DNA of 59,426 nucleotides from Basidiobolus meristosporus CBS 931.73 (Eukaryota; Basidiobolomycota; Basidiobolomycetes; Basidiobolales; Basidiobolaceae). A model generated the notes under the pieces. It saw nothing but the letters and a program-made list of their open reading frames with translations. It searched no databases and had not been told where the DNA came from. Positions 46,577-59,426 of this stretch are shown here, in pieces. Each line of letters opens with the position of its first letter. Positions within the stretch are counted from its first letter, which is position 1. The DNA lies in the NCBI GenBank assembly GCA_002104905.1, contig MCFE01000550.1, forward strand, positions 1 through 59,426, in the 5' to 3' direction. The position numbers were made by a program, and so were the translations under genes.

Positions 46577-46990
46577 TGATGATCCTGTCAAAAGACTGTT
46601 GCAAAATTGAAATCTCATGACCAAGAGGTAATGATGACATTAGGACACCCCAAGAAAAAAAACCAAGAGGAAGGAAAGTCATCAATATAGGTGAAATATT
46701 CATATGAATCCAGATAAGTCAATCTACAAATAAACAAGCCAGCTGGAAATTCTAAGTTCCCATAGTAATGACTAACCATGAGAAAAATAACTGTGATGAT
46801 CTAACCAAAAGGCTGTTGCAAAATCTAGATTCTGTGACTAAGAGATATTGCTGCTGTTGGCACACTGTGCAAATATTGTTGGAAAAAAGCCTTGAGAAAT
46901 ATTGTGATGATCCCATCAAAAGGCCATCACAGATTTAAAATCCTGTGACTAAGAGTACTGATCTCATCAGGACACTGTGCAGAGACCATT
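46577..46990. repeat. Degenerate tandem repeat of about 110 bp, three units
   Basis: Units start at GATGAT at 46577, 46795 and 46905. Each runs through a version of TCAAAAGGCTGTTGCAAAAT, then CTGTGACTAAGAG, then GGACACTGTGCA. The first spacing is 218 bp instead of 110 because a decayed LINE 3' end lies between unit 1 and unit 2. Confidence 0.6.
46669..46768 (-). mobile_element. Decayed family-B LINE 3' end (copy 0)
   Basis: About 100 bp that aligns base by base with the 3' ends of the family-B elements: AAGTCATCAATATAGGTGAAAT (compare AAGTCACCAAGGTAGGTGAAAT), then a TCTACAAATAAACAAGCC block and AGCTGG. Many substitutions and no telomere stub remain. It has the same orientation as all other copies. 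It is the most centromere-proximal and most decayed copy. Confidence 0.6.
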
Positions 46991-47050
46991 GAAAAATAAT
47001 TGCACCCCAGATTTCACAAAAAACCTAGTCAAGATTTTTCATCACAACAA

Positions 47051-47060
47051 GGGTTAGGGG
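47051..47060 (+). repeat. Interstitial telomere stub 1
   Basis: GGGTTAGGGG directly before the 3' end of LINE copy 1. The sequence to its left is not LINE-like. Confidence 0.7.
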
Positions 47061-47976
47061 AAGGGAAAGTCACCAAGGTAGGTGAAATCTTTATTTGATT
47101 TCAGACAAGTCTAACTACAAATAAAGAAGCCAGCTGGGAATAGAAGATTCCCAAAGTAAACACCAAGTTGAATATGAATAAATCTAAGCTAAAGTTAAGA
47201 CAGTATCCCAGAGTACACTGGAGTTCAGGTTCATGGGGGAGTGAAGTAGATGAGCTTGAGAGACATAATAATCTTTGGGGAAGTGTATAACAGCAGGTGA
47301 AGGGGAGTCTTTGATAAGTGAAGTGAATCTTGAGAGCAGAGATTCCTCTAATGAGAAGGTCTTGTAAACTGGAGAATCAGGAAACTCTTTAAAGGCATGG
47401 TCAGTAGGTTCCCAAAAAAACTGGTCAGAGACATTTGAGAGAATTGTTTAGCAATACTTTTGTCAAGTACTACCTCTAGAGTGTGATGGTTGATAAATCT
47501 CATGTTAACAATCTTGGATAAGTTGTAACCTTGTTGCTTGAGATACATCCTATGCTCAGATATAGGAATAAACTCCACATTGGCAAAGTAGCAGACATCC
47601 CAGTCAGTAGCAGGAGGTAAATCAGAAGTGGCAGGAAACCTTCTTTTGGTCTTGGGAGGAGCAGCAGGATTTCTTGAGGAAGCAGGAACAGGCTTTTTGA
47701 CAGCTTCAGAGTAGGAAGAGTGAGCAGGAGCAGATGATTCTTGGGGAGTCTTGTTGACAGGAAGAGTTGGCACAGGGACAATAGATTCTTGCAGATCAGA
47801 GAAAGCAGAAAACAGCTTTTGAACTTGTTTCTAGAGTAAAGCATTTTCAGCTTCAACAAGTGCAAGCCTTTCCTCAAGGAAGAAAATCTGAAGGAAATGG
47901 AGTGAAGGCATCAGAAATAAGAAGAAGAGGCTAAGATGGGGTGGGTGGGTGGAAAAATTAGCAGAGAGAAGAGAAG
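47061..47976 (-). mobile_element. LINE copy 1: family B, ORF1-only, about 916 bp
   Basis: The 3' end (left) has the shared hairpin GTCACC..GGTGA and TTTATTT. The element then contains only an ORF1-like gene, now broken, and a short pyrimidine-rich (sense strand) leader. It aligns with copy 5 (51413-52327) over its whole length and stops at the same 5' base (…GAGAAGAGAAGG on the plus strand), after which a different element follows. This suggests that 47976 is a true 5' end rather than a truncation. Confidence 0.75.
47348..47911 (-). pseudogene. Family-B ORF1 (coiled-coil RNA-binding type), disrupted
   Basis: A homologue of the intact ORF1 at 51535-52263, read from an ATG at 47911. It is broken by an in-frame TAG near 47832 (TTTCTAGAG on the plus strand, where the intact copy has a Lys codon) and by a later frameshift that separates the N-terminal coiled coil from the C-terminal part. 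The C-terminal half keeps the DLPPATDWDVCYFANVEFIP and MYLKQQGYNLSKIVNM stretches. It is older than copy 5 by this measure. Confidence 0.7.
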
Positions 47977-47986
47977 GGGTAAGGGG
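47976..47986 (+). repeat. Telomere-like stub 2
   Basis: GGGGTAAGGGG, a slightly degenerate TTAGGG unit, joins the 5' end of copy 1 to the 3' end of copy 2. Confidence 0.55.
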
Positions 47987-48637
47987 AGGGAAAGTCACCA
48001 AGTTGGTGAAATCTTTATTTGAGTTAAGAACTAATTGTTGTATCCAAGAGAAAGTGTAACAAAACTCTTAAATAGTTTAACTGTACCAAAGGGACAATTA
48101 AGTGCAGAATCTTAGAATTGTCAGAGAGTGGCGGAAATATTAGCAGAAAGATTCTGATCTAATATTGGTCTTGGATATAGCTGGGTTGGCTATAATGACA
48201 ATGATATTTGTTTGCTAGGCAGGCTAGGCTTGGTGTTCTTTGGAGTGCTAGATATACTAGGCTTGGATAGAAACCAGAACGGAATTGTTGGATTCTTATT
48301 TTTTCTGAGACAGAATCTAAATTTTGTTGAGACACACACTAAACCAAAAGGTTCAGTAAACTTTATATATACTTTTCTGATCAAGTTGAATTAGTAAGTG
48401 CCAAGGGACTGGATAGATTGAAATCAATTTGAGTGTTCATAGGTGCTTAAGATAAATGAAAATTACATCATCAATCACCTGATGTCTTGGCAACTGCACA
48501 GTGGTTGGATAGATCTCAGATGACTAATCACCTGGGAAGGCTTGGCAGATAGGTTGATAACATAATGACCATTTGAAAATAGATCAGGTGTGATAGCTAA
48601 AAATAGATTCTGAGGTGGGATAAAATACACTGTAACT
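47987..48637 (-). mobile_element. LINE copy 2: family C 3' end, interrupted
   Basis: The first 48 bases (AGGGAAAGTCACC, AAGTTGGTGAAATC, then GAGTTAAGAACTAAT) match the 3' end of copy 9 (57380 onwards). After 48035 the match stops. A possible solo LTR follows, and then about 75 bp I cannot assign. This is either a very short 5'-truncated element followed by other DNA, or a longer element hit by an LTR retrotransposon. Confidence 0.5.
48036..48562. mobile_element. Possible solo LTR
   Basis: Starts TGTTGTATCC and ends GGTTGATAACA, imperfectly inverted ends of the TG..CA kind. It is flanked on both sides by TAAT (48032-48035 and 48563-48566), which could be a 4-bp target duplication. It holds a TATATATAC stretch (about 48365). 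No coding sequence or second LTR is seen. The evidence is weak, because four-base matches arise easily by chance. Confidence 0.25.
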
Positions 48638-48649
48638 GGGTTAGGGGGG
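48638..48649 (+). repeat. Telomere stub 3
   Basis: GGGTTAGGGGGG immediately before the 3' end of LINE copy 3. Confidence 0.7.
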
Positions 48650-48713
48650 AGGGAAAGTCACCAAGGCAGGTGAAATCTTTATTTGATTGCAGACAAGTCT
48701 AACTACAAATAAA
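48650..48713 (-). mobile_element. LINE copy 3: family B, only the last ~64 bp
   Basis: Contains the hairpin, TTTATTT and the ACAAATAAAG block of family B, and stops there. GGGTTAGGGGGG lies on its left and GGGTTAGGG on its right. It is an extreme 5' truncation captured between two telomere stubs. Confidence 0.75.
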
Positions 48714-48722
48714 GGGTTAGGG
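48714..48722 (+). repeat. Telomere stub 4
   Basis: GGGTTAGGG directly after the 5' end of copy 3, continuing into degenerate G-rich sequence (TGTAGG, AGTAAGGG, CTAGG). Confidence 0.65.
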
Positions 48723-49340
48723 TGTAGGTGTTATAGTAAGGGCTAGGAAAAGGTTAGAAGAGCAGGGGGTCTGGGGGACGCAGTCCCCTAGAGAATAAAA
48801 AAGCAGGGGGTTTGGGGGATGCAATCCCCTATACTGCTCCCATACTCTTTAAATTCCCATTGGATTACTTTTCTCTCATTCTTGGTTCTGGTCCCTTAGG
48901 GTTAGAATTCCTCCTCCTAACCCTTATCACCCTAACCATAAATATTTTTACCCTACAATTGGCACATTGTCTGCTCATATAGTGGGCATGTCTGGGCCAA
49001 TATTTGTCTCCCTATACTGTCCATATGCTCTGTATAAGTCTTGATGACTATTTAATTAATAAATTGTTATTTTTAATGTATATCTAATAATTAATGGGAT
49101 TCATCCCAATCTGACCACAATCCCATATTTTGATAAGCTTTGGGCACCACAAATTGCGCGGCCCTAATATGATAAAAAAATTCATGGCCAATACAAATTT
49201 TCTGTAACCCAATTGCTTTTACCAAATATAAAGTGTATCCCAAAGTTCAATATATATTATGGCTATAATAGAAACTTTATTTGACACCATTGCAACTACT
49301 ACTTATGTTCTATGCGCACATGTATCCCGCAGGAATTGTA
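48723..49340. other. Subtelomeric spacer with G-rich doublet and inverted telomere motifs
   Basis: Two related G-rich units (about 48762-48798 and 48801-48833), each GCAGGGGGT.TGGGGGA followed by CGCAGTCCCCT or TGCAATCCCCT, can fold as hairpins. Further right TTAGGGTTAG (48896-48905) is followed by CCTAACCC (48916-48923) and CCCTAACC (48930-48937), that is telomere motifs in opposite orientation. The rest is AT-rich and unassigned. Confidence 0.5.
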
Positions 49341-49346
49341 AAACTT

Positions 49347-49812
49347 AGCCACGTGGTACAAAAGTGATTTTATTTTTCATCATGATAGTTTAACATGAGT
49401 CCCTAACGCACTTTTATAGTGCGTGGTAACCATACCCCAACAGGTTTTAAGGATACCCACTTGCTACATTTACTTGTGTCTAGTGGGAGTTAGCAATCAT
49501 CAGCCGCGTGGTAATAAAGTGCTTTTATTTTTCATCATGATAGTTTTACATGAGTCCTTAACGCACTTTCATAGTGCACGGTAACCATACCCCAACAGGT
49601 TTTAAGGATACCCACTTGCTACGTTTACTTGTGTCTAGCGGGAGTTATCAATCATCAGCCACACGGTAATAAAGTGCTTTTATTTTTCATCATGATAGTT
49701 TTACATGAGTCCCTAATGCACTTTTATAGTGCACGGTACCCATACCCCCAGAAAGTAGTGTGGATGCTTACTTTAAACGCTCACTTGTGTATTGTACAGA
49801 CTATCAACAAAC
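49347..49812. repeat. Tandem satellite, three units of ~155 bp
   Basis: Units begin at AGCCACGTGGTA (49347), AGCCGCGTGGTA (49502) and AGCCACACGGTA (49657), and a partial fourth starts at 49813. They share TTTTATTTTTCATCATGATAG, a palindrome GCACTTTTATAGTGC and CATACCCCAACAGGTTTTAA. Units 1-2 and 2-3 are close to identical; the third diverges after the CCATACCCC block. Confidence 0.85.
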
Positions 49813-49829
49813 AGCCGCGTGGGAATGGA

Positions 49830-50207
49830 ACATCATAGAAAAGCATTGCTTTGTTGTTAGCAAGTATTGATGCGCAAATAGTGGTACTATGTGAATTATT
49901 GAGTAACTATTTACTCTAGTTGGTTCCAAGATATTCCTAGACAATATGCTCAAAATCAATATTAGCATCAATAGCTTGCTCTTTGATCACTAAACCACCG
50001 CACCCAATATGAGGTGGCCTTGGTTTTGTCTAGCTGTCAAGGAATGAAACCAGAGTACAGTCACAAGAGAGGCAAAAGTGAAATGTGATGAAGTAAGTGT
50101 ATATGAAAGTAATATAAATCTACAGGACAGAAGAGAACAACCAGTAGTTAAACAGCACTCACTGACACTCCACCAAGTAGAGCACCAACACGGACAATAA
50201 ACAAGTC
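49830..50207. other. Unassigned spacer
   Basis: About 380 bp between the satellite and the orphan ORF. No recognised gene or repeat. It may include the promoter of the ORF at 50208. Confidence 0.4.
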
Positions 50208-50669
50208 ATGAGGGGAAAGCTTAAGGACCGCTACTTGGGGATCAAGACCAAAAGAGGAAGCTGCCTCTACCATAGCAGTCCTTGCGCTCCAAAGGAAGAC
50301 CAAGAGTCTATTATAGACAAAGATTGCGGCAAGAAGAGCAGTACAATTACCAGTTCTGGTAGTGGTACCTTTGGAAGTCCCAAATACCTGGAGAAAACTT
50401 GGAAAAAATTGGCAGATGACTCAGTTGTCCTGAGGAGAAAACAAACCAATGCGATTGAGCAGTTCCAAAACAAACTTCAGCTTAGTTCTTCTTTGCCTCA
50501 CTATAAAGTACTCCAAGTGGCTTATTTGGATTATAAGCGTATGAAGAAGAATCAGGCAGAGACTGATAAATTAAGTGATAGTCAATTGCATCACTTCTTA
50601 GATCAGGTAGAGAAACAGTCGCACAGCCAAGAGACGGAACAAGAATTGACAATTACAGAAACCAAATAA
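50208..50669 (+). CDS. Orphan 153-residue protein next to a telomere stub
   Basis: Starts with ATG (MRGKLKDRYLGIKTKRGSC) and runs without introns to TAA. It is Lys/Ser/Gln-rich; the second half (KTWKKLADDSVVLRRKQTNA, then YKVLQVAYLDYKRMKKNQ) should be helical, and a charged coiled-coil-like tail follows. AATAAAATAAAA directly after the stop (50693-50706) looks like a polyadenylation region and is followed at once by a telomere-like stub and LINE copy 4. It is the only plus-strand frame among the repeats. No family is recognised; it could be a real subtelomeric gene or a transposon remnant. Confidence 0.45.
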   Translation: MRGKLKDRYLGIKTKRGSCLYHSSPCAPKEDQESIIDKDCGKKSSTITSSGSGTFGSPKYLEKTWKKLADDSVVLRRKQTNAIEQFQNKLQLSSSLPHYKVLQVAYLDYKRMKKNQAETDKLSDSQLHHFLDQVEKQSHSQETEQELTITETK

Positions 50670-50706
50670 TTTTGCCAATGTAGTTTTGCATTTTAATAAA
50701 ATAAAA

Positions 50707-50716
50707 GGGTAGGGGG
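50707..50716 (+). repeat. Telomere-like stub 5
   Basis: GGGTAGGGGG, a TTAGGG-related unit lacking one T, before the 3' end of LINE copy 4. Confidence 0.55.
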
Positions 50717-51405
50717 AGACAGTCACGAACAGGTGAAATCTTTATTTCAGTTGAAACAAAGAAGCCAGCGCTACTGTTGTAGCTTTGATACAAGCGTGTG
50801 TAGCTGAGGGGAATTTGTAGGTAAGTTGATAAGAAGTGATGATAGTTCTTCAGTGCTCAAGACACTGTTCAGTGGGAAGGGGGGTAGCAAGAGAGGTAAG
50901 AATGACTTGTGAACAACATTAATGAGGGGAATGTGATAAGGATTGATATTCATCATAAAGGGAGTGTGCTGCTGCAGATATTGCTGCCAAAGGTCTGTCA
51001 AGTACTTCAGGTAGGCCAGCTTGGGTTTTTCTGACTGCAGAATATAGTGAGCAAACTTCTTGACTTCAGGATCTCCCAGTAGAGTTCTCCAGCAGGAGCC
51101 AGGTGTAGTGTGGTGTGTTCTCTTCCAGGCCTTAATCAGTGGGTTCTTGCAGTTGTGAAGTCTGAGGTATAATCTGGTTCTAAGGTAGAGAAGTCTGATC
51201 TTATAGGGCATAAACCCAAAAGCACCAAGAATAGCATGTCTGTAGGGGCATTCAGGCAAATGAGGCACCAAGGAGGTAATGCACCATACTGCAAACTTGT
51301 CAAGCTTAGTGCAGTCTCTAGAAGTAAGAGAGAGAAGTGGTAAGCCAAATTCCAGGACAGGGAAGACAAACTGCTTGAGTAGAAGGAGGCAGCTGGGAGA
51401 TGAAG
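50717..51405 (-). mobile_element. LINE copy 4: family A, 5'-truncated ORF2 end
   Basis: The 3' end has AGTCACGAACAGGTGAAATC; one base of the hairpin stem is changed compared with other A copies. ORF2 sequence ends at the stop at 50771 (…LHTLVSKLQQ) and covers about 210 C-terminal residues, including LDKFAVWCITSLVPHLPECP and GAFGFMPYKIRLLYLR. The copy breaks off where the intact relative reads GAAGTTGTAGG and here continues GAAGTTAGGGG, that is directly into the next stub with a GTT overlap. Confidence 0.85.
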
Positions 51406-51412
51406 TTAGGGG
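51406..51412 (+). repeat. Telomere stub 6
   Basis: TTAGGGG between copies 4 and 5. Confidence 0.6.
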
Positions 51413-52327
51413 AGGGAAAGTCACCAAAGTAGGTGAAATCTTTATTTGATTTCAGACAAGTCTAACTACAAATAAAGAAGCCAGCTGGGAATAGAAGATT
51501 CCCAAAGTAAACACTAAGTTGAATATGAATAAATCTAAGCTAAAGTTAAGGCACAATCCCAGAGTACACTGGAGTTCAGGTTCATGGGGGAGTGAAGTAG
51601 ATAAGCTTGAGAGATATAATAATCTTTGAGGAAGTGGGTAACAGCAGGTGAAGGGGAGTTTTTGATAAGTGAAGTGAATCTTGAGATCAGAGATTCCTCT
51701 AATGAGAAGGTCTTGTAAACTGGAGAATCAGGAAACTCTTTGAAGGCATGGTCAGTAGGTTCCCAGTAAAACTGGTCAGAGACATTTTTAGAGAACTCTT
51801 TAGCAATACTTTTGTCAAGTACTACCTCCAGAGTGTGATGGTTGATAACTCTCATGTTGACAATCTTGGATAAGTTGTAACCTTGTTGCTTGAGATACAT
51901 CCTATGCTCAGATATAGGAATAAACTCCACATTGGCAAAGTAGCAGACAGCCCAGTCAGTAGCAGGAGGCAAATCAGAAGTGGCAGGAAACTTTCTTTTG
52001 GTCTTGGGAGGAGCAGCAGGATGTCTTGAGGAAGCAGGAACAGACTTTTTGACAACTTCAGAGTAGGAAGAGTGAGCAGGAGCAGATGATTCTTGGGGAG
52101 TCTTGTTGGCAGGAAGAGTTGGCACAGGGACAATAGATTCTTGCAGATCAGAGAAGGCAGAAAAGAGCTTTTGAACTTGTTTCTTGAGTAGAGCATTTTC
52201 AGCTTCAACAAGTGCAAGCCTTTCCTCAAGGAAAGATATCTGAAGGGAATGGAGTGAAGGCATAAGAAATAAGAAGAAGAGGGTAAGAAAGGGTGGGTGG
52301 GTGGGAAAATTAGCAGGGAGAAGAGAA
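51413..52327 (-). mobile_element. LINE copy 5: family B, complete-looking ORF1-only element
   Basis: About 915 bp: shared 3' hairpin and TTTATTT, the AAATAAAGAAGCCAGCTGGG block, an intact ORF1 (51535-52263) and a 64-base leader that is pyrimidine-rich in the sense strand. The 5' boundary coincides with that of copy 1. No endonuclease or reverse transcriptase is encoded. Confidence 0.8.
51535..52263 (-). CDS. Family-B LINE ORF1, intact, 242 residues
   Basis: Starts with ATG at 52263. Residues about 8-42 (ISFLEERLALVEAENALLKK and following) form a leucine-rich coiled coil, as in the trimerising part of LINE ORF1 proteins. A Pro/Ser/Ala linker (about 48-90) is followed by a globular region beginning LPPATDWAVCYFANVEFIPI and MYLKQQGYNLSKIVNM, with HHTLEVVLDKSIAKEF. 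The equivalent region of family-A ORF1 (LPPASTWTVVYLKQVPWTPI, LSRIVNL, KILEVILDQNIADPF) is clearly homologous, so this is an ORF1/Gag-type nucleic-acid chaperone rather than a host gene. It has no enzyme domain. Confidence 0.8.
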   Translation of the reverse strand: MPSLHSLQISFLEERLALVEAENALLKKQVQKLFSAFSDLQESIVPVPTLPANKTPQESSAPAHSSYSEVVKKSVPASSRHPAAPPKTKRKFPATSDLPPATDWAVCYFANVEFIPISEHRMYLKQQGYNLSKIVNMRVINHHTLEVVLDKSIAKEFSKNVSDQFYWEPTDHAFKEFPDSPVYKTFSLEESLISRFTSLIKNSPSPAVTHFLKDYYISQAYLLHSPMNLNSSVLWDCALTLA

Positions 52328-52338
52328 GGGTTAGGGGG
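52328..52338 (+). repeat. Telomere stub 7
   Basis: GGGTTAGGGGG between copy 5 (5' end) and copy 6 (3' end). Confidence 0.7.
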
Positions 52339-52742
52339 AGACAGTCACCAACAGGTGAAATCTTTATTTCAGTTGAAACAAAGAAGCCAGCGCTACTGTT
52401 GTAGCTTTGATACAAGAGTGTGTAGCTGAGGGGAATTTGTAGGTAGGTTAATAAGAAGTGATGATAGTTCTTCAGTGCTCAAGACACTGTTCAGTGGGAA
52501 GGGGGGTAGCAAGAGAGGTAAGAATGACTTGTGAACAACATTAATGAGGGGAATGTGATAAGGATTGATATTCATCATAAAGGGAGTGTGCTGCTGCAGA
52601 TATTGCTGCCAAAGGTCTGTCAAGTACTTCAGGTAGGCCAGCTTGGGTTTTTCTGACTGCAGAATATAGTGAGCAAACTTCTTGACTTCAGGATCTCCAA
52701 GTATAGTTCTCCAGCAGGAGCCAGGTGTAGTGTGGTGTGTTC
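52339..52742 (-). mobile_element. LINE copy 6: family A, 5'-truncated, ~400 bp
   Basis: The 3' hairpin AGTCACCAACAGGTGAAATC is intact. It encodes the last ~115 residues of ORF2 (stop at 52393). It is truncated where copy 7 reads GTGTTCTCTTCC, here GTGTTCTTAGGG, so the break overlaps the telomere unit by TCT/TT. Confidence 0.85.
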
Positions 52743-52757
52743 TTAGGGTTAGGGGGG
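52743..52757 (+). repeat. Telomere stub 8, two units
   Basis: TTAGGGTTAGGGGGG, the longest clean telomere stub in the array, between copies 6 and 7. Confidence 0.8.
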
Positions 52758-52811
52758 AGACAGTCACCAACAGGTGAAATCTTTATTTCAGTTGAAACAA
52801 AGAAGCCAGCG

Positions 52812-55566
52812 CTACTGTTGTAGCTTTGATACAAGAGTGTGTAGCTGAGGGGAATTTATAGGTAAGTTAATAAGAAGTGATGATAGTTCTTCAGTGCTCA
52901 AGACACTGTTCAGTGGGAAGGGGGGTAGCAAGAGAGGTAAGAATGCCTTGTGAACAACATTAATGAGGGGAATATGATATGGATTGATATTCATCATAAA
53001 GGGAGTGTGCTGCTGCAGATATTGCTGCCAAAGGTCTGTCAAGTACTTCAGGTAGGCCAGCTTGGGTTTTTCTGACTGCAGAATATAGTGAGCAAACTTC
53101 TTGACTTCAGGATCTCCAAGTATAGTTCTCCAGCAGGAGTCAGGTGTAGTGTGGTGTGTTCTCTTCCAGGCCTTAATCAGTGGGTTGTTGCAGTTGTGAA
53201 GTCTGAGGTATAATCTGGTTCTAAGGTAGAGAAGTCTGATCTTATAGGGCATAAACCCAAAAGCACCAAGAATAGCATGTCTGTAGTGGCATTCAGGCAA
53301 ATGAGGCACCAAGGAGGTAATGCACCATACTGCAAACTTGTCAAGCTTAGTGCAGTCTCTAGAAGTAAGAGAGAGAAGTGGTAAGCCAAATTCCAGGACA
53401 GGGAAGACAAACTGCTTGAGTAGAAGGAGGCAGCTGGGAGCTGAAGTTGTAGGAGGAGTAACAGCCAGTAGCTTGTGGAGTGCCTGTCTTGCCAGGATAA
53501 TTCTCTTCTTCAGGTGTGCTCCAGAGTCTAGTCCAGTAGGAAGGAAAGGAAAGCCAAGATATGTAGCAGAAACCTGAGCAGGTAGAGTGGAGTTCTCCAA
53601 GTTGATGGGAGAGCCCAAAGGTACTGTCTTTGCAATGGAAAGCTGGAGATTATTCTTCTGCAGATACTGGTGGATGGTCTGGGAGTCTTGTTGCACATTG
53701 GAGGAGGATATTCTGATGTCATCAGCAAAGAGAGTAACCAGGCAGTCAGCTGAGAGTCTTGGGAAATCATTCAGGAAGATGGCAAACAGTATAGGACCAA
53801 GCATAGAGCCTTGAACCACTCCATTAGGAACTGAGAACACAGCTGATTGCTCACTTGGGTGCAGAATTCTTGCTTGTGGATCCAGAAACAGAGACCTGAC
53901 AAGGAGGGTGAGAGAGGTACTGGAGAAGCATTGCAACTTGGACCAAAGCAGATTTCTGTCAACTGAATCAAAGGCCTTAGTAATATCAAACAGAACAGAG
54001 GGATACTTGCACTGGAGAGAGTGATCTTGGCTAAGTATGACTGCATATTCCAAGGAGAGGCCAGGAACAAAGCCAAACTGTGCAGGATGAAACTTGAGAG
54101 AGTCAGAGTAGAGCTCCTGAGCAAGCAGAAGCTCAAACACCTTTCTGCAGGTGGGCAGCAGAGATATTGGCCTGTAGGAGCTAGGATCCAGGTGCTTTCC
54201 TTTACCCTTGTACAGTGGCAGAACATTTGCAAAGGACCATTCCTCAGGAGTAGAAAGCTGGGCTGAGCATTGCTGAAACAGTGGAAGCAGAAGTGCAGAC
54301 ATGGCCTTGGTACTAGTCTTCAGAAGCTCATAGGAGATTGTGTCCACACCTGGAGCTGTAGAGTTGGGAAGCCTCTTGAGCACATTATGGATTCTCCTTT
54401 GATCAAGTGCAAGTGGGATGGGCAGAGTCTTGAAGTCAGGATGAAAGCCAGGAGTTGAGTACTGCTTTGTAGAGAAGAAGATGTTAGCCAGCTGTTCTGT
54501 TGAAGGTAACTTCCTGGAAGAGGGCCTCATTGCCCTGTAGAGTCTTGATACTGTTCTTGTTATAGAGTTGGAAGATTGCAGAGGCAAGGAACTCATAATA
54601 TGATCCCAGAGCTGAGTATGCAGAGTGTGGTGAATTGCCTTGGAGTGGTGTATTGCTGTCAGGAGGAGTTTCTCTGTTTTTGGGTTAGGGAAACTCAGGT
54701 AGCTTTGTTGCAGGGCTAAAACAATGGATTCCCATTTTCTTGAGGTAACAGCAGTAGTCTTGCATGGCAGTGAGAGGGAGGCAGACACCAGAATCAGATG
54801 CTTCACAAAGAGCCAGGCATAGTTGAGATCATCTGGCAGAGAAAGTAGCAAACTTGCAAGCTTCAAGTAGTTCCCAAAGTCTTTCTTCTGATTCTTAGTA
54901 GCTTTGTGGGTGAGCACAGTAAGTTTTGGCAGCTTCCTCTTCACAACTGGTTGCATAGAAAGGGACCAGGCTGGGTGGTCAGAGGCTCTCAAGGATCCTA
55001 GCTCAGCTCCAGAGAATTGCTTAACTTCATTCACAAAGTAGAGGGCAGCAGCAGAAGGGCAGATCCAGTCAACACATCTTTTCTCAGATTGAGCACCTAG
55101 TGCTAGCAGGTGGCTTTCTCTCAGGAAGTTCAGTAGGAATGTAGACCTTGGCTTCATTCTTGCAGTCAGAGTAGTCTTGTTCTCAGGATGGGGAATGTTG
55201 AGATCTCCAAGCAAGATAACAGGTGTTGATATAGATTGTTGGTATTGCTGAACCTTCTGGCATATAACTTGCACTTCCTGAAGGGCAAGACTTGGAGGCA
55301 GATAGCAGAGTACCAGACTGATAGTTGGCAACTGGAGAGCAGTCACAGTAAGGGGAGTAAAGAGGAACACAGAGCTGAGGAGTATTGATGGTAGAAGAGA
55401 TGAAGCAGATAGAGGAGGTATTCTTTGTTCTAGGAGTAGAAAAGCAATATAGATTAGTCAAAAGTATAGAGGGTAGCTGAACATCAATCAAACACAGGAG
55501 GGAAAATCTTGAAAGAAGTCTCTCTAGAGTTGGTCTTGATGGCTGTATGCTGTTGCAGTTAAGCAA
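52812..55566 (-). pseudogene. Family-A LINE ORF2: APE-type endonuclease and reverse transcriptase, one frameshift
   Basis: An N-terminal frame starting near 55566 (LLNCNSIQPSRPTLERLL, the usual endonuclease opening) passes by a frameshift near 55370 into an 852-residue frame. The endonuclease motifs LLGDLNIPHPE and SDHPAWSL follow. The reverse transcriptase has YKGKGKHLDPSSYRPISLLP, FGFVPGLSLEYAVILSQDHS, FDITKAFDSVDRNLLW, NGVVQGSMLGPILFAIFLND and the active site LFADDIRI. No RNase H or zinc knuckle is visible after it. The C-terminal domain ends LHTLVSKLQQ, 54 bases before the end of the element. It belongs to the APE-type non-LTR retrotransposons (L1/Tad-like); the exact clade is not decided. 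Confidence 0.85.
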
Positions 55567-55581
55567 CAGAACTTCAGGTAG

Positions 55582-56465
55582 TCAGGCAGAGGTTGTAGCT
55601 TCTTCAGAGGCAGCATTGATAATGTGACCTGCAGAGTCCCAGAGCTCTTCAAATGGTGCATCACTTAAGTCAGCAAGGAGGGAAATGGCATGATTCTTGA
55701 GGAAGTATGCCACATCATAGGAGGGGGCTTGTCTCTTGATGGCAGCAAAGAAAGACAGAATGGCAACATGGGCTGGAGGCTTGTTGAACAGTAGAGAGTC
55801 AGAGGATTCAGATTCTTCAGGCACAATCTTGAAGTCAGTTTTCAGCCAGTTAAGGTTCTTCTCCACAAAGGCAACAAATGGGTCAGCAATGTTTTGGTCT
55901 AGGATAACCTCCAGAATCTTCCCTTTTCTCCAGGCCAGGTTGACAATTCTTGAGAGCTGAATATTGCATGCCTTGAGTGCTTTCCTGATGTTGGAAATGG
56001 GGGTCCAGGGAACTTGCTTCAAGTACACCACAGTCCAGGTAGAAGCTGGTGGTAGGTTTGCTGGGGGCTTGTAAGTCCTTCTGTGTTGCAATGGAGCTGC
56101 AGTAGTCAGATTGGAGTCCACATTCTCAGTAGAAGGTTTTCTTGATGTATCTTGCTGAATAGTACTGGAGCTGGATGTGCTGATAATTCTTGCTAGAACC
56201 TTGCCTGCATAAGGTCTGAGGTATAGCTGAGGTGACTGTAGAGGTGGTGGCAGCTGGTGCAGGTGGAGAGGCAGAGACTGAAGCAGGAACTGAGGTCACC
56301 TGGGAGAAGGCAGTGGAAGCAGGTTTTCTGGGAGGAACAGAGTTCGCTATCCAGTTGTTCTGTAAAACACTGGAGTAGCTTTTCTGTGGAACAGGATCTT
56401 GCTCTTGAACAGGAACATAAGCAGGAGGCTGGGGCTGAGCAGTAGTGGTAAGGCAGTGGCACTCA
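55582..56465 (-). pseudogene. Family-A LINE ORF1, disrupted and probably 5'-truncated
   Basis: The C-terminal 179 residues are open, with RRTYKPPANLPPASTWTVVY, LKACNIQLSRIVNL and KILEVILDQNIADPF, homologous to the family-B ORF1. Upstream, a Pro/Ala/Ser/Thr-rich linker lies in another frame, joined by a frameshift at about 56150-56220. The ORF1 stop (TGA at 55584-55582) is followed in the same frame by the start of the endonuclease sequence, with no ATG between, so ORF2 may depend on readthrough or reinitiation. Confidence 0.65.
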
Positions 56466-56477
56466 GGGTTAGGGGGG
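56466..56477 (+). repeat. Telomere stub 9
   Basis: GGGTTAGGGGGG between copies 7 and 8. Confidence 0.75.
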
Positions 56478-57373
56478 AGACAGTCACCGACAGGTGAAAT
56501 CTTTATTTCAGTTGAAACAAAGAAGCCAGCGCTACTGTTGTAGCTTTGATACAAGAGTGTGTAGCTGAGGGGAATTTGTAGGTAAGTTAATAAGAAGTGA
56601 TGATAGTTCTTCAGTGCTCAAGACACTGTTCAGTGGGAAGGGGGGTAGCAAGAGAGGTAAGAATGACTTGTGAACAACATTAATGAGGGGAATGTGATAA
56701 GGATTGATATTCATCATAAAGGGAGTGTGCTGCTGCAGATATTGCTGCCAAAGGTCTGTCAAGTACTTCAGGTAGGCCAGCTTGGGTTTTTCTGACTGCA
56801 GAATAAAGTGAGCAAACTTCTTGACTTCAGGATCTCCAAGTATAGTTCTCCAGCAGGAGCCAGGTGTTGTGTGGTGTGTTCTCTTCCAGGCCTTAATCAG
56901 TGGGTTGTTGCAGTTGTGAAGTCTGAGGTATAATCTGGTTCTAAGGTAGAGAAGTCTGATCTTATAGGGCATAAACCCAAAAGCACCAAGAATAGCATGT
57001 CTGTAGTGGCATTCAGGCAAATGAGGCACCAAGGAGGTAATGCACCATACTGCAAGCTTGTCAAGCTTAGTGCAGTCTCTAGAAGTAAGAGAGAGAAGTG
57101 GTAAGCCAAATTCCAGGACAGGGAAGACAAACTGCTTGAGTAGAAGGAGGCAGCTGGGAGCTGAAGTTGTAGGAGGAGTAACAGCCAGTAGCTTGTGGAG
57201 TGCCTGTCTTGCCAGGATAATTCTCTTCTTCAGGTGTGGTCCAGAGTCTAGTCCAGTAGGAAGGAAAGGAAAGCCAAGATATGTAGCAGAAACCTGAGCA
57301 GGTAGAGTGGAGTTCTCCAAGTTGATGGGAGAGCCAAAGGTACTGTCTTGCATGGAAGCTGGAGATTATTCTT
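56478..57373 (-). mobile_element. LINE copy 8: family A, 5'-truncated, ~0.9 kb
   Basis: The 3' end reads AGTCACCGACAGGTGAAATC. It encodes about 270 C-terminal residues of ORF2 (stop at 56532), very similar to copy 7. Small deletions near its 5' end (about 57335-57360) break the frame. It stops where copy 7 reads GGAGATTATTCTTCTGC; here GGAGATTATTCTTAGGG. Confidence 0.85.
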
Positions 57374-57379
57374 AGGGGG
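57372..57379 (+). repeat. Telomere stub 10
   Basis: TTAGGGGG between copies 8 and 9; the first TT is shared with the truncated copy 8. Confidence 0.65.
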
Positions 57380-59426
57380 AGGGAAAGTCACCAAGTTGGT
57401 GAAATCTTTATTTGGGTTAAGAACTAATCTAAGTACAAATAAAGAAGCCAATTAAGAGGTCTAGAACCTCTCTAATAAGTAATCTAATTTATGTTTTGTT
57501 TCATCTCTAATGTTTGTTTCAATAAAGTAAAGCTCATCAGGGGTAAATATAAAATTCAGGGGTTTTGGGGGAAGTACAAATTGTAGATGTTTCTGATCAA
57601 TATAATCCAAGACTGGAACCCAGCCTGGGATTAGGTGTAGTAGGAAAGGTGTGTGGACTTGTAAGTAGCTCTGCCACATAGATCTTAGATGGTCCTGAGC
57701 CAGTAGTCTTGGTTTCTCAGCTTTTTGAAGTTTTGAAGCAAGCTCTGTTACTACAGCAGAGCCAACCAGGGTGTGCCAGCAAGAAGATTTCAGGGAGGAG
57801 TTAGATTGAAGCCATAGTTTGATGGAGGGGTTATGTGATTTCTGAAGTTTGACTAGGAAGGAAGCCCGGAGATAGATCATTCGGATTTGGTATGGGTAGA
57901 ACCCAAAGGCTCCATTAGTTGCATGGATATAGGGAGATACTGGAAGATAAGGTACCAAGGATCTGATACACTGATGGAGAAATTTATCCAGGCGGTGAAG
58001 TTCTCTGGAGGTTAGGGGTATAATGTGGAGACCAAATTCAAGTACTGGCAGCACATACTGCTTCAGAAGTATAGGGATCTTTTGAATTGGAGTGTCTGGA
58101 GTGACTACTACCAGAAGCTTTTTGAGAGCCTGTTGGGCAAGACGGATCCTATTATTCAGGTGGAGCTTTGAGTCAATCCCATGTTGACAAAACGGCAGAC
58201 CTAGATATATTGCAGTTTGTTGTGGCAGAATGCTAGTGTTCTGTATAGTTGTAGTGCATCCAATTGGGACTGTCTTGGAAATTGAGAGTGAGAGGTTGTT
58301 GGCAGCCAAGTACTTCTCAATGATGGCAGTGTCTGCTATGGGATTAGGAGTAGCAATCTTGATATCATCCGCATAGAGAGTTAGTAGTGGATAGGGAGAG
58401 TCTGGTGAGGGGCCTTTTGGAAATAAAGGAAAGTCATGTAGGAATATCACAAATAGTAAGGGACCTAGTACAGATCCTTGGACTACTCCATTTGGAACCT
58501 CATAAGTCTCTGATGTGCAACTTGGATGCAAAATTTTGGCTGAGTTCTCACAAAATAGAGAACGTACAAGAAGGGTCATTGGTAGTGTGGTAACTGCTAA
58601 TAGCTTTCTCCAAAGCAGAGCTCTGTCCACAGAGTCAAAGGCTTTAGTAATGTCAAACAGAATGGTTGGCAATGAGAATTGAAGTGAATGATCATGGCTT
58701 AGCACTACAGCCATATCCAAGGAGAGTTTGGGCAAGAAGCCAAACTGAGAAGGATGGAATGGATATAGTTGAGATTGCAAGGATCTTGCTATCATAAGCT
58801 CAAAGATTTTCCGGCAGGTTGGTAGGAGTGAAACTGGCCGGTAAGAACCTGGGAGTGAGTGTTTCCCCTTCCCTTTGTATAAGGGTATTACATTTGCCTG
58901 TGACCAGGCCTTTGGGGTAGTCAATTGTTGGGCACAGATAGAGTAGAATGGGAGAAGTAAGTGACTCATTTTGGAGTAGCACACCCGGAGTAGATCGTAG
59001 GTAATCAAGTCATGTCCAGGTGCAGTATTTGCAGGAAGCTTCTTTAAAATTTTCTCCAGAAGCTTTGCTGAAACCACAATTGGAGATGTTGGACTGGTGG
59101 ATATGTTACCAGTATGGTAGAAAGGAGGAGTGGGATGCATGGTTGAATCAAAGAATATAGGGGCCAGTTTGTCTGGTGATGGTATACTCCTTGCTTGGGG
59201 TCTCATGGCTTTGTATACTCTTGATATGGACCTTGTGGTGGCATTCATATTTACTAAGGGCAAGGTATCCATGATATGAGCCCATAATCTAGTATGCTCA
59301 GTGATCTGTAGTGACTTGGAGTAGGAGATTGCGCTTTCCAGGAGGTTCTGTGTTTTTGGGTTAGGGAAACATAGGTAGCTGGAATTTAAGGCAGAAATGA
59401 TGGATTTCCATTTAAGTTGGTTTGCA
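57380..59426 (-). mobile_element. LINE copy 9: family C, partial (continues past the window)
   Basis: The 3' end AGGGAAAGTCACCAAGTTGG, then TGAAATCTTTATTTGGGTTAAG, and the AAATAAAGAAGCCAATTAAG block define family C. The element is open from its ORF2 stop (57461) to the window edge and shows no break. Its 5' part, with the endonuclease and any ORF1, lies to the right. Confidence 0.85.
57461..59426 (-). CDS. Family-C LINE ORF2: reverse transcriptase, open to the window edge
   Basis: At least 654 residues without a stop, entering the window at NPKTQNLLESAISYSKSLQI. Reverse-transcriptase motifs: LYKGKGKHSLPGSYRPVSLL, FGFLPKLSLDMAVVLSHDHS, FDITKAFDSVDRALLW, NGVVQGSVLGPLLFVIFLHD and the active site TLYADDIKIA (YADD, where family A has FADD). 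The C-terminal part (LDKFLHQCIRSLVPYLPVSP, TNGAFGFYPYQIRMIYLR) parallels family A but is clearly diverged. It is the only ORF2 here without visible damage, and thus the best candidate for the enzyme that mobilises the array. The endonuclease domain lies outside the window. Confidence 0.85.
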   Translation of the reverse strand, partial: ANQLKWKSIISALNSSYLCFPNPKTQNLLESAISYSKSLQITEHTRLWAHIMDTLPLVNMNATTRSISRVYKAMRPQARSIPSPDKLAPIFFDSTMHPTPPFYHTGNISTSPTSPIVVSAKLLEKILKKLPANTAPGHDLITYDLLRVCYSKMSHLLLPFYSICAQQLTTPKAWSQANVIPLYKGKGKHSLPGSYRPVSLLPTCRKIFELMIARSLQSQLYPFHPSQFGFLPKLSLDMAVVLSHDHSLQFSLPTILFDITKAFDSVDRALLWRKLLAVTTLPMTLLVRSLFCENSAKILHPSCTSETYEVPNGVVQGSVLGPLLFVIFLHDFPLFPKGPSPDSPYPLLTLYADDIKIATPNPIADTAIIEKYLAANNLSLSISKTVPIGCTTTIQNTSILPQQTAIYLGLPFCQHGIDSKLHLNNRIRLAQQALKKLLVVVTPDTPIQKIPILLKQYVLPVLEFGLHIIPLTSRELHRLDKFLHQCIRSLVPYLPVSPYIHATNGAFGFYPYQIRMIYLRASFLVKLQKSHNPSIKLWLQSNSSLKSSCWHTLVGSAVVTELASKLQKAEKPRLLAQDHLRSMWQSYLQVHTPFLLHLIPGWVPVLDYIDQKHLQFVLPPKPLNFIFTPDELYFIETNIRDETKHKLDYLLERF

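Follow-up and report, generated by a model that had tools for sequence, protein, structure and literature searches.

The window analysed here is an entire contig (C814) of 59,426 bp from Basidiobolus meristosporus CBS 931.73, one of 1,311 contigs in an assembly of 89.0 Mb, and its right part carries an array of long interspersed nuclear elements (LINEs) joined to telomere repeats. The left 46 kb hold ordinary genes, including one for a glycogen debranching enzyme (by homology) and frames that we take to encode beta-tubulin and topoisomerase II. Among homologues with a named source, those closest to the debranching enzyme come from Glomeromycotina, Calcarisporiella, and Neoconidiobolus. To map the copies, we used references for families A, B, and C cut from the window and a reference for a short fourth element, D, from locus L047. 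Mapping identified nine LINE copies of families A, B, and C plus one decayed C relic; every one of them is on the minus strand, its 3' end pointing left, which bears out the copy number and orientation given in the original prediction for this stretch. The array, which includes long terminal repeat (LTR) sequence and several open reading frames (ORFs) with reverse transcriptase (RT) and endonuclease domains, comprises the following features.

46669..46775, minus strand: decayed LINE C 3' fragment, 79% identity, no adjoining TTAGGG
47062..47970, minus strand: LINE C, 5'-truncated; GGGTTAGGG at 47051-47059 ahead of the 3' end
47985..48035, minus strand: LINE B 3' fragment, 51 bp, preceded by degenerate GGGGTAAGG
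48036..48640, no strand: LTR of a presumed Ty3/gypsy-type element inserted in LINE B; 605 of about 693 bp, then TTAGGG and LINE C
48641..48646, plus strand: TTAGGG at the next LINE's 3' end
48648..48714, minus strand: LINE C 3' fragment, 67 bp
48715..50700, no strand: subtelomeric segment without LINE sequence; tandem repeats of 155 bp at 49347-49748
50714..51415, minus strand: LINE A, 5'-truncated, preceded by degenerate AGGGTAGGG
51406..51411, plus strand: junction TTAGGG
51411..52322, minus strand: LINE C, with an ORF1-like frame at 51535-52344
52331..52336, plus strand: junction TTAGGG
52336..52743, minus strand: LINE A, 5'-truncated at 408
52743..52754, plus strand: junction TTAGGGTTAGGG, the sole exact double unit in the window
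52755..56462, minus strand: longest LINE A, 3.7 kb
52812-55457, minus strand: ORF2 frame of the longest LINE A, with part of the APE-like endonuclease and the RT
55183-55581, minus strand: N-terminal endonuclease part of the longest LINE A, in another frame
55582-56295, minus strand: ORF1-like frame of the longest LINE A
56469..56474, plus strand: junction TTAGGG
56475..57373, minus strand: LINE A, 5'-truncated at 903
57372..57377, plus strand: junction TTAGGG
57378..59426, minus strand: LINE B, cut by the contig end, with an RT frame at 57461-59425

The original prediction treated 46669-59426 as one LINE array, which holds except for the cut-off LTR at 48036-48640 and the subtelomeric segment at 48715-50700. 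It also placed one or two TTAGGG units at the 3' ends of all nine copies. We found an exact TTAGGG before seven of the nine (47054, 48641, 51406, 52331, 52743 plus 52749, 56469, and 57372), but the junctions near 47976 and 50707 carry only the degenerate units listed above, and "one or two" proved generous, with two full units at one junction only. Across the window, TTAGGG is not enriched (31 observed versus 26.9 expected; 26 of 100 shuffles reach 31); it is the placement of the hexamer at LINE 3' ends that counts. Poly(A) and target-site duplications were looked for at the window junctions and neither was seen, in agreement with the earlier reading. The contig terminates within a LINE, with its own tip outside the sequence.

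LINE 3' ends and telomere tracts across the assembly

A motif common to the LINE 3' ends, GGTGAAATCTTTATTT, has 1,705 exact matches in the genome (1,555 on the plus strand and 150 on the minus strand), and the same word read backwards has none. Four-unit windows, (TTAGGG)4, show the same strand lean, a consequence of telomeres standing chiefly on the right side of contigs. This near-exclusive placement of telomere tracts at right contig ends (7,428 plus versus 81 minus windows) is an assembly convention that matters for strand statistics. Positions and flanks were read for the first 100 of the 1,705 places; these 100 lie on 26 contigs (C1-C90). Exact TTAGGG stands directly before the 3' hairpin in 85 of the 100, compared with 0.26% of 22-nt stretches in positions 1-46000 of the window, so the flanking hexamer described for this array is also found at LINE 3' ends elsewhere in the genome. 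On ten contigs longer than 100 kb, all 36 listed matches lie within 24.7 kb of the end faced by their 5' side (median, 5.4 kb); the other 64 fall on 16 contigs that are about 20 kb long, too short for position to be telling. A survey of the stretches read, limited to copies no shorter than 40 bp and with repeats of one place removed, yielded 105 non-redundant copies (46 A, 29 D, 16 C, 9 B, and 5 E-like, a type described below), none of them antisense. Internal copies in mixed orientation, which the original prediction had named as evidence against itself, are thus not what the surveyed copies and the long-contig matches display. Genome-wide, exact 3' ends number 677 for family A and 424 for D, and 170 full-length D 5' ends are followed by TTAGGG.

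Ten terminal telomere tracts were read (contigs C1, C2, C21, C22, C45, C83, C90, C355, C485, and C1005). They consist of 191-259 bp of TTAGGG repeats, with 20-37 (TTAGGG)4 windows each, and at eight of the ten the tract begins directly on LINE or D sequence; other sequence intervenes at C1 (56 bp) and C45 (about 870 bp). Three of these tips (C45, C83, and C90) had been picked for their LINEs. The other seven were picked independently of LINEs, four from a list of telomere matches (C1, C2, C21, and C22) and three from 20 contigs sampled at even spacing (C355, C485, and C1005), and all seven have a LINE or D within 1 kb of the tract. Contig C424 (312,558 bp) carries a telomere tract at either end, with D copies arranged as mirror images and each tract starting directly on LINE or D sequence; counting these two, all 12 tracts read have a LINE or D within 1 kb. 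Since the ten tips run from or near arrays into TTAGGG, the placement of the chromosome tip to the right of the array, as originally proposed, is well matched. In the even sample, a LINE occurs in the last 2.5 kb of 6 of 20 right ends, and the three right ends that finish in a telomere tract all have one; at the left ends, where 300 bp were read, 1 of 20 has a LINE, in mirror orientation, and none is telomeric. With 7,509 (TTAGGG)4 windows in all and 29 per tract on average, the telomeric contig ends would number roughly 250, an estimate that ignores internal tracts. Together with C424, this figure raises the possibility that the fungus has very many small chromosomes.

By sequence, a telomerase gene is present in this genome. 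The Telomerase_RBD family has two genome matches, one with an internal stop in a plain six-frame reading, and a VDDF motif, which we take to be TERT motif C, lies in a nearby frame. With such a gene present, telomerase would not have been replaced by the LINEs.

Elements, junctions, and interrupted copies

Five 3' end types (A to E) share one hairpin module, which is nearly invariant over ten aligned ends. The three families originally recognized therefore hold for the window, and at least five 3' end types exist genome-wide. Families A, B, and C are telomere-linked LINEs of the APE type; they combine location at chromosome ends, a single polarity, joining to telomere repeats, and a LINE-type RT. 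E is probably also a telomere-linked LINE family. This fifth type (GATGATAATCACC...GGGTGAAATC) was observed at TTAGGG in L042 (4268, minus strand), L049 (5857), and L036 (1501).

The RT was recognized by Pfam (RVT_1, E 9.7e-25), and the best Foldseek match of a homologue, P0001, is human L1 ORF2p (E 3.9e-28). The five nearest RT homologues have 48-80% identity, and further ones have about 31% over 30% of the query. An APE-like endonuclease domain lies N-terminal to the RT; it displays GDLN/GDFN, D, and SDH residues and scores 20.8 in Pfam, under the cut-off of 27.4. Where what we take to be the APE catalytic Glu aligns, all three members with coverage have Asp. Judged by its predicted fold, the endonuclease is of the APE type, unlike those of the fungal telomeric elements MoTeR and FoTeR. 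No restriction-like endonuclease after the RT appeared among the Pfam matches, although no search aimed at it was made.

Element D (525 bp; L047 5096-5622) has no ORF over 40 aa, its longest ATG frame being 40 aa. Like a short interspersed nuclear element (SINE) derived from transfer RNA (tRNA), it is short, lacks a long ORF, and shares its 3' tail with LINEs. An exact RNA polymerase III (Pol III) B box, GGTTCAAATCC, stands at +57, and no match to an A box was found near the 5' end. Searches for a tRNA origin with ARAGORN and Rfam gave no match. Near its 5' end (about positions 28-37 of the RNA), D carries CCCTAACCC, which amounts to 1.5 telomere repeats in the C-strand sense and sits about where the anticodon arm would be if D were tRNA derived. 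Seventeen of 26 D copies are full length (truncated copies being counted without E-type ends). Full-length D ends in GGTT, and AGGGG comes immediately next in 8 of 16 copies.

To characterize the joins, we scored 76 distinct junctions, leaving out those within 110 nt of a locus start. One TTA-containing unit was present at 51 junctions, two at 15, three at 1, four at 2, seven at 1, and, under a strict rule, none at 6. The run of G's following TTA varies from 5 to 12 in family A (mode, 6) and from 4 to 8 in D (mode, 5), as expected if the G's of a primer slip on a C-tract in the RNA. Of the 96 copies with flanking sequence on the left, 87 begin at their 3' end. At the 5' side, the 105 surveyed copies are followed by a LINE or D 3' end (54), other sequence (26), an LTR element (8), a telomere tract (8), the end of the stretch (8), or something else (1). 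Excluding LTR insertion points and the limit of the reference, 22 family A ends pass into another element or telomere, and they do so at 20 distinct positions; thus, most additions are separate events. Family A is cut about 112 nt from its 3' end (GTAGGTAAG) three times, with differing junctions (L040 5786-6044; L080 1225-1343), and this point is a candidate RT stop site or telomerase seed hot spot. Of 38 junctions, 29 show an overlap of 1 nt or more between LINE end and telomere repeat and 9 show none, compared with an estimated 44% overlapping by chance; the long overlap at 51406 in the window is inflated by chance likeness.

An LTR element with LTRs reading TGTTGT...ACAACA, which we take to be of Ty3/gypsy type, has entered LINEs, leaving a flanking duplication, GTGTC, in L078 and a similar one in L042. 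Its sites are 48036-48640 in the window, L040 3426-5780, L048 626-3620, L078 1298-1995, and L042, and its fragments contain frames that are presumably RT/integrase-like and chromodomain-like. Beyond two whole LTRs, the LINE picks up again. At five loci (48036-48640, L040, L048, L046, and L080), the LTR element is cut off and never resumes; TTAGGG comes next, and then the 3' end of a LINE or D. These sequences point to loss of the distal end and then attachment to the bare end, of which a capped, cut-off LTR element would be the expected trace. The segment at 48715-50700 recurs on contig C32 (L050 6222-8361), with 93-97% identity over the main pieces, joined via GGTTAGGG. Besides its tandem repeats, this duplicated segment carries small ORFs. 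Its joining to LINE ends by TTAGGG suggests break-induced capture, and recombination probably also builds ends.

Nesting of LINEs within LINEs was considered and rejected: nine copies begin inside a reference, and none follows a LINE splitting it. Two of the nine come after whole LTRs (L078 and L042) and one after a cut LTR-element fragment (L042); the remainder reflect insertion and rearrangement in D (L050 and L080) and four weak matches of 41-127 bp to the 5' part of C. In the stretches read, no LINE was found to resume beyond another LINE.

Proposed attachment to chromosome ends and its alternatives

We consider it likely that telomere-linked APE-type LINEs and the short element D attach successively to chromosome ends, with the telomeric GGG-3' end priming on LINE RNA. 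We favor this reading because of the fixed polarity, the 3' ends on TTAGGG, the capped cut-off LTRs, the telomere tracts on LINE and D 5' ends, and the telomerase gene. The original argument, that the polarity is what results when the 3' end of the telomere G-strand primes reverse transcription of LINE RNA, fits the observed orientation. An eroded or broken end would keep its last telomere repeats or gain a few from telomerase, and its GGG-3' end would anneal to the terminal C-tract of the LINE RNA, which directly follows the common AAUAAA/hairpin module. The LINE RT would then copy the RNA, mostly incompletely, and the complementary DNA (cDNA) would turn into the new end with no second junction and thus no target-site duplication. 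Telomerase would seed TTAGGG on the cDNA end, and the cycle would repeat, so that arrays would add kilobases to ends capped by telomerase with about 200 bp. We infer that LINE arrays may be needed in end maintenance.

Several observations weigh against successive attachment. Tips carry 191-259 bp of TTAGGG, yet 72 of 76 internal junctions have no more than two units; if elements joined a normal telomere, long tracts should remain inside the arrays, so the reading calls either for ends that were almost bare or for long tracts that were lost afterward. Three accounts of the short tracts are available: nearly bare ends, templating from LINE RNA, and later breakage. Exact TTAGGG is missing at 15 of the 100 listed 3' ends, some of which have degenerate units; the sequence after 26 of the 105 copies is unclassified; and 14 of the 20 evenly sampled right ends lack a LINE over their final 2.5 kb, none of these 14 being telomeric. 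A LINE A piece in L042 (reverse complement 3833) follows a cut LTR-element fragment, an unexplained rearrangement. Finally, the endonuclease domain has been kept, and pure end-priming is thereby not proven.

The kept endonuclease could instead nick the telomere tract, in the style of SART or MoTeR, with the distal part lost or contracting and long internal tracts later breaking to one or two units. We regard this as possible but the less probable account: almost every junction would have to have lost repeats secondarily, no LINE picks up again past another LINE, and Asp stands where the presumed APE catalytic Glu aligns in the three covering members. Rather unlikely, in our view, is that the TTAGGG unit is copied from LINE RNA ending in ...CCCCUAA(CCC), which would act as a telomerase-like template on any free 3' end that has slight homology. 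The single unit at 51 of 76 junctions fits such copying, as do an L040 copy cut to about 16 nt of its 3' end that is still followed by TTAGGGG and the AGGGG directly after the GGTT end of full-length D; however, irregular units and junctions of up to seven units occur, the G-run is variable in length, and all ten tips have long TTAGGG tracts. Growth of the arrays mainly by break-induced replication or recombination between TTAGGG tracts, and not by new retrotransposition, would account for the segment shared with C32 at a TTAGGG join and for the frequency of D-D neighbors (12 of 54 neighbor pairs), but we think it improbable as the main process given the 20 distinct positions of 22 family A ends and the interleaving of families in 12 ordered combinations. 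That ordinary dispersed LINEs gather at contig ends because repeats break assemblies is scarcely credible and was rejected, since even with 64 of the 100 listed matches on contigs of about 20 kb, the fixed orientation, the adjoining TTAGGG, the telomere-capped arrays, and contig C424, telomeric at both ends, contradict it.

Successive attachment could be part of a larger, more speculative scheme, which we put forward only tentatively, in which a two-enzyme cycle keeps ends long: several families of APE-type LINEs and a Pol III-made, telomere-directed SINE would extend bare ends by kilobases with hairpin/C-tract RNA as a telomerase-like template, and telomerase would do no more than seed and cap them. 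If so, D would be a SINE fashioned for chromosome ends; its full-length cDNA finishes in GGTT, a permutation of the telomere repeat on which either enzyme can build.

Comparison with known telomeric retroelements

The HeT-A, TART, and TAHRE elements of Drosophila form terminal arrays of one polarity from several families, at telomeres with no known telomerase or short telomere repeat and with A-runs at the junctions; Basidiobolus differs in its TERT motifs and TTAGGG tracts. The Athena elements and Terminons of bdelloid rotifers are telomere-linked retroelements joined to short telomere repeats. They are Penelope-like and endonuclease deficient (PMC7943196), whereas the Basidiobolus elements have a LINE-type RT and an APE-like domain. 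SART1 and TRAS1 of Bombyx mori (R1 clade) share the APE-type fold (1wdu); their endonuclease targets telomere repeats, and their 3' untranslated region is needed and is proposed to anneal to the target (PMC4700185). Only full-length elements are reported at Bombyx telomeres (PMC4700185), whereas in Basidiobolus family A ends lie at many positions and nine of 26 D copies are truncated.

Among fungi, MoTeR1 and MoTeR2 of Pyricularia oryzae are a CRE-type LINE and a short partner sharing its 3' end (PMC7367193). The likeness to Basidiobolus extends to head-to-tail telomeric arrays with 5' ends tipward and TTAGGG tracts between copies, to 5'-truncated copies healed by telomerase with short seeds (present in 17 of 23 MoTeR truncations), and to the short partner itself; long internal MoTeR tracts break later, and stable ones have at most two units (PMC7367193). 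MoTeRs differ in their restriction-like endonuclease and TTTGGG-type 5' repeats (PMC7367193), whereas the Basidiobolus elements are of the APE type and have no fewer than five kinds of 3' end, with a LINE or D near each of the 12 tracts read. FoTeR of Fusarium oxysporum is likewise telomere associated, with the telomere motif on both sides, but groups with MoTeR1, Cnl1, and CRE elements and has 3-7 repeats at its 3' side (PMC12857005), compared with mostly one in Basidiobolus. Restriction-like endonucleases and CRE grouping are described for both MoTeR and FoTeR (PMC12857005, PMC7367193, PMC8381367). The LINE-related sequences of Scheffersomyces are described as subtelomeric and not as telomere arrays (PMC8546629).

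The open-access literature searched contained no telomeric LINEs in Basidiobolus or other early-diverging fungi and no telomeric SINEs; likewise unreported there is an early-diverging fungus that combines several APE-type LINE families and a SINE-like partner at its telomeres with a telomerase gene. This system would add a set of telomeric LINEs that differ from the CRE-clade fungal elements in their APE-type endonuclease and occur alongside a telomerase gene, and its 1,705 exact 3' motifs and roughly 250 estimated telomeric ends permit junction statistics. Collectively, the patterns in this assembly suggest that retrotransposons and telomerase build chromosome ends together, and they make testable both a possible sharing of end maintenance between LINEs and telomerase and its exploitation by a short non-coding partner.

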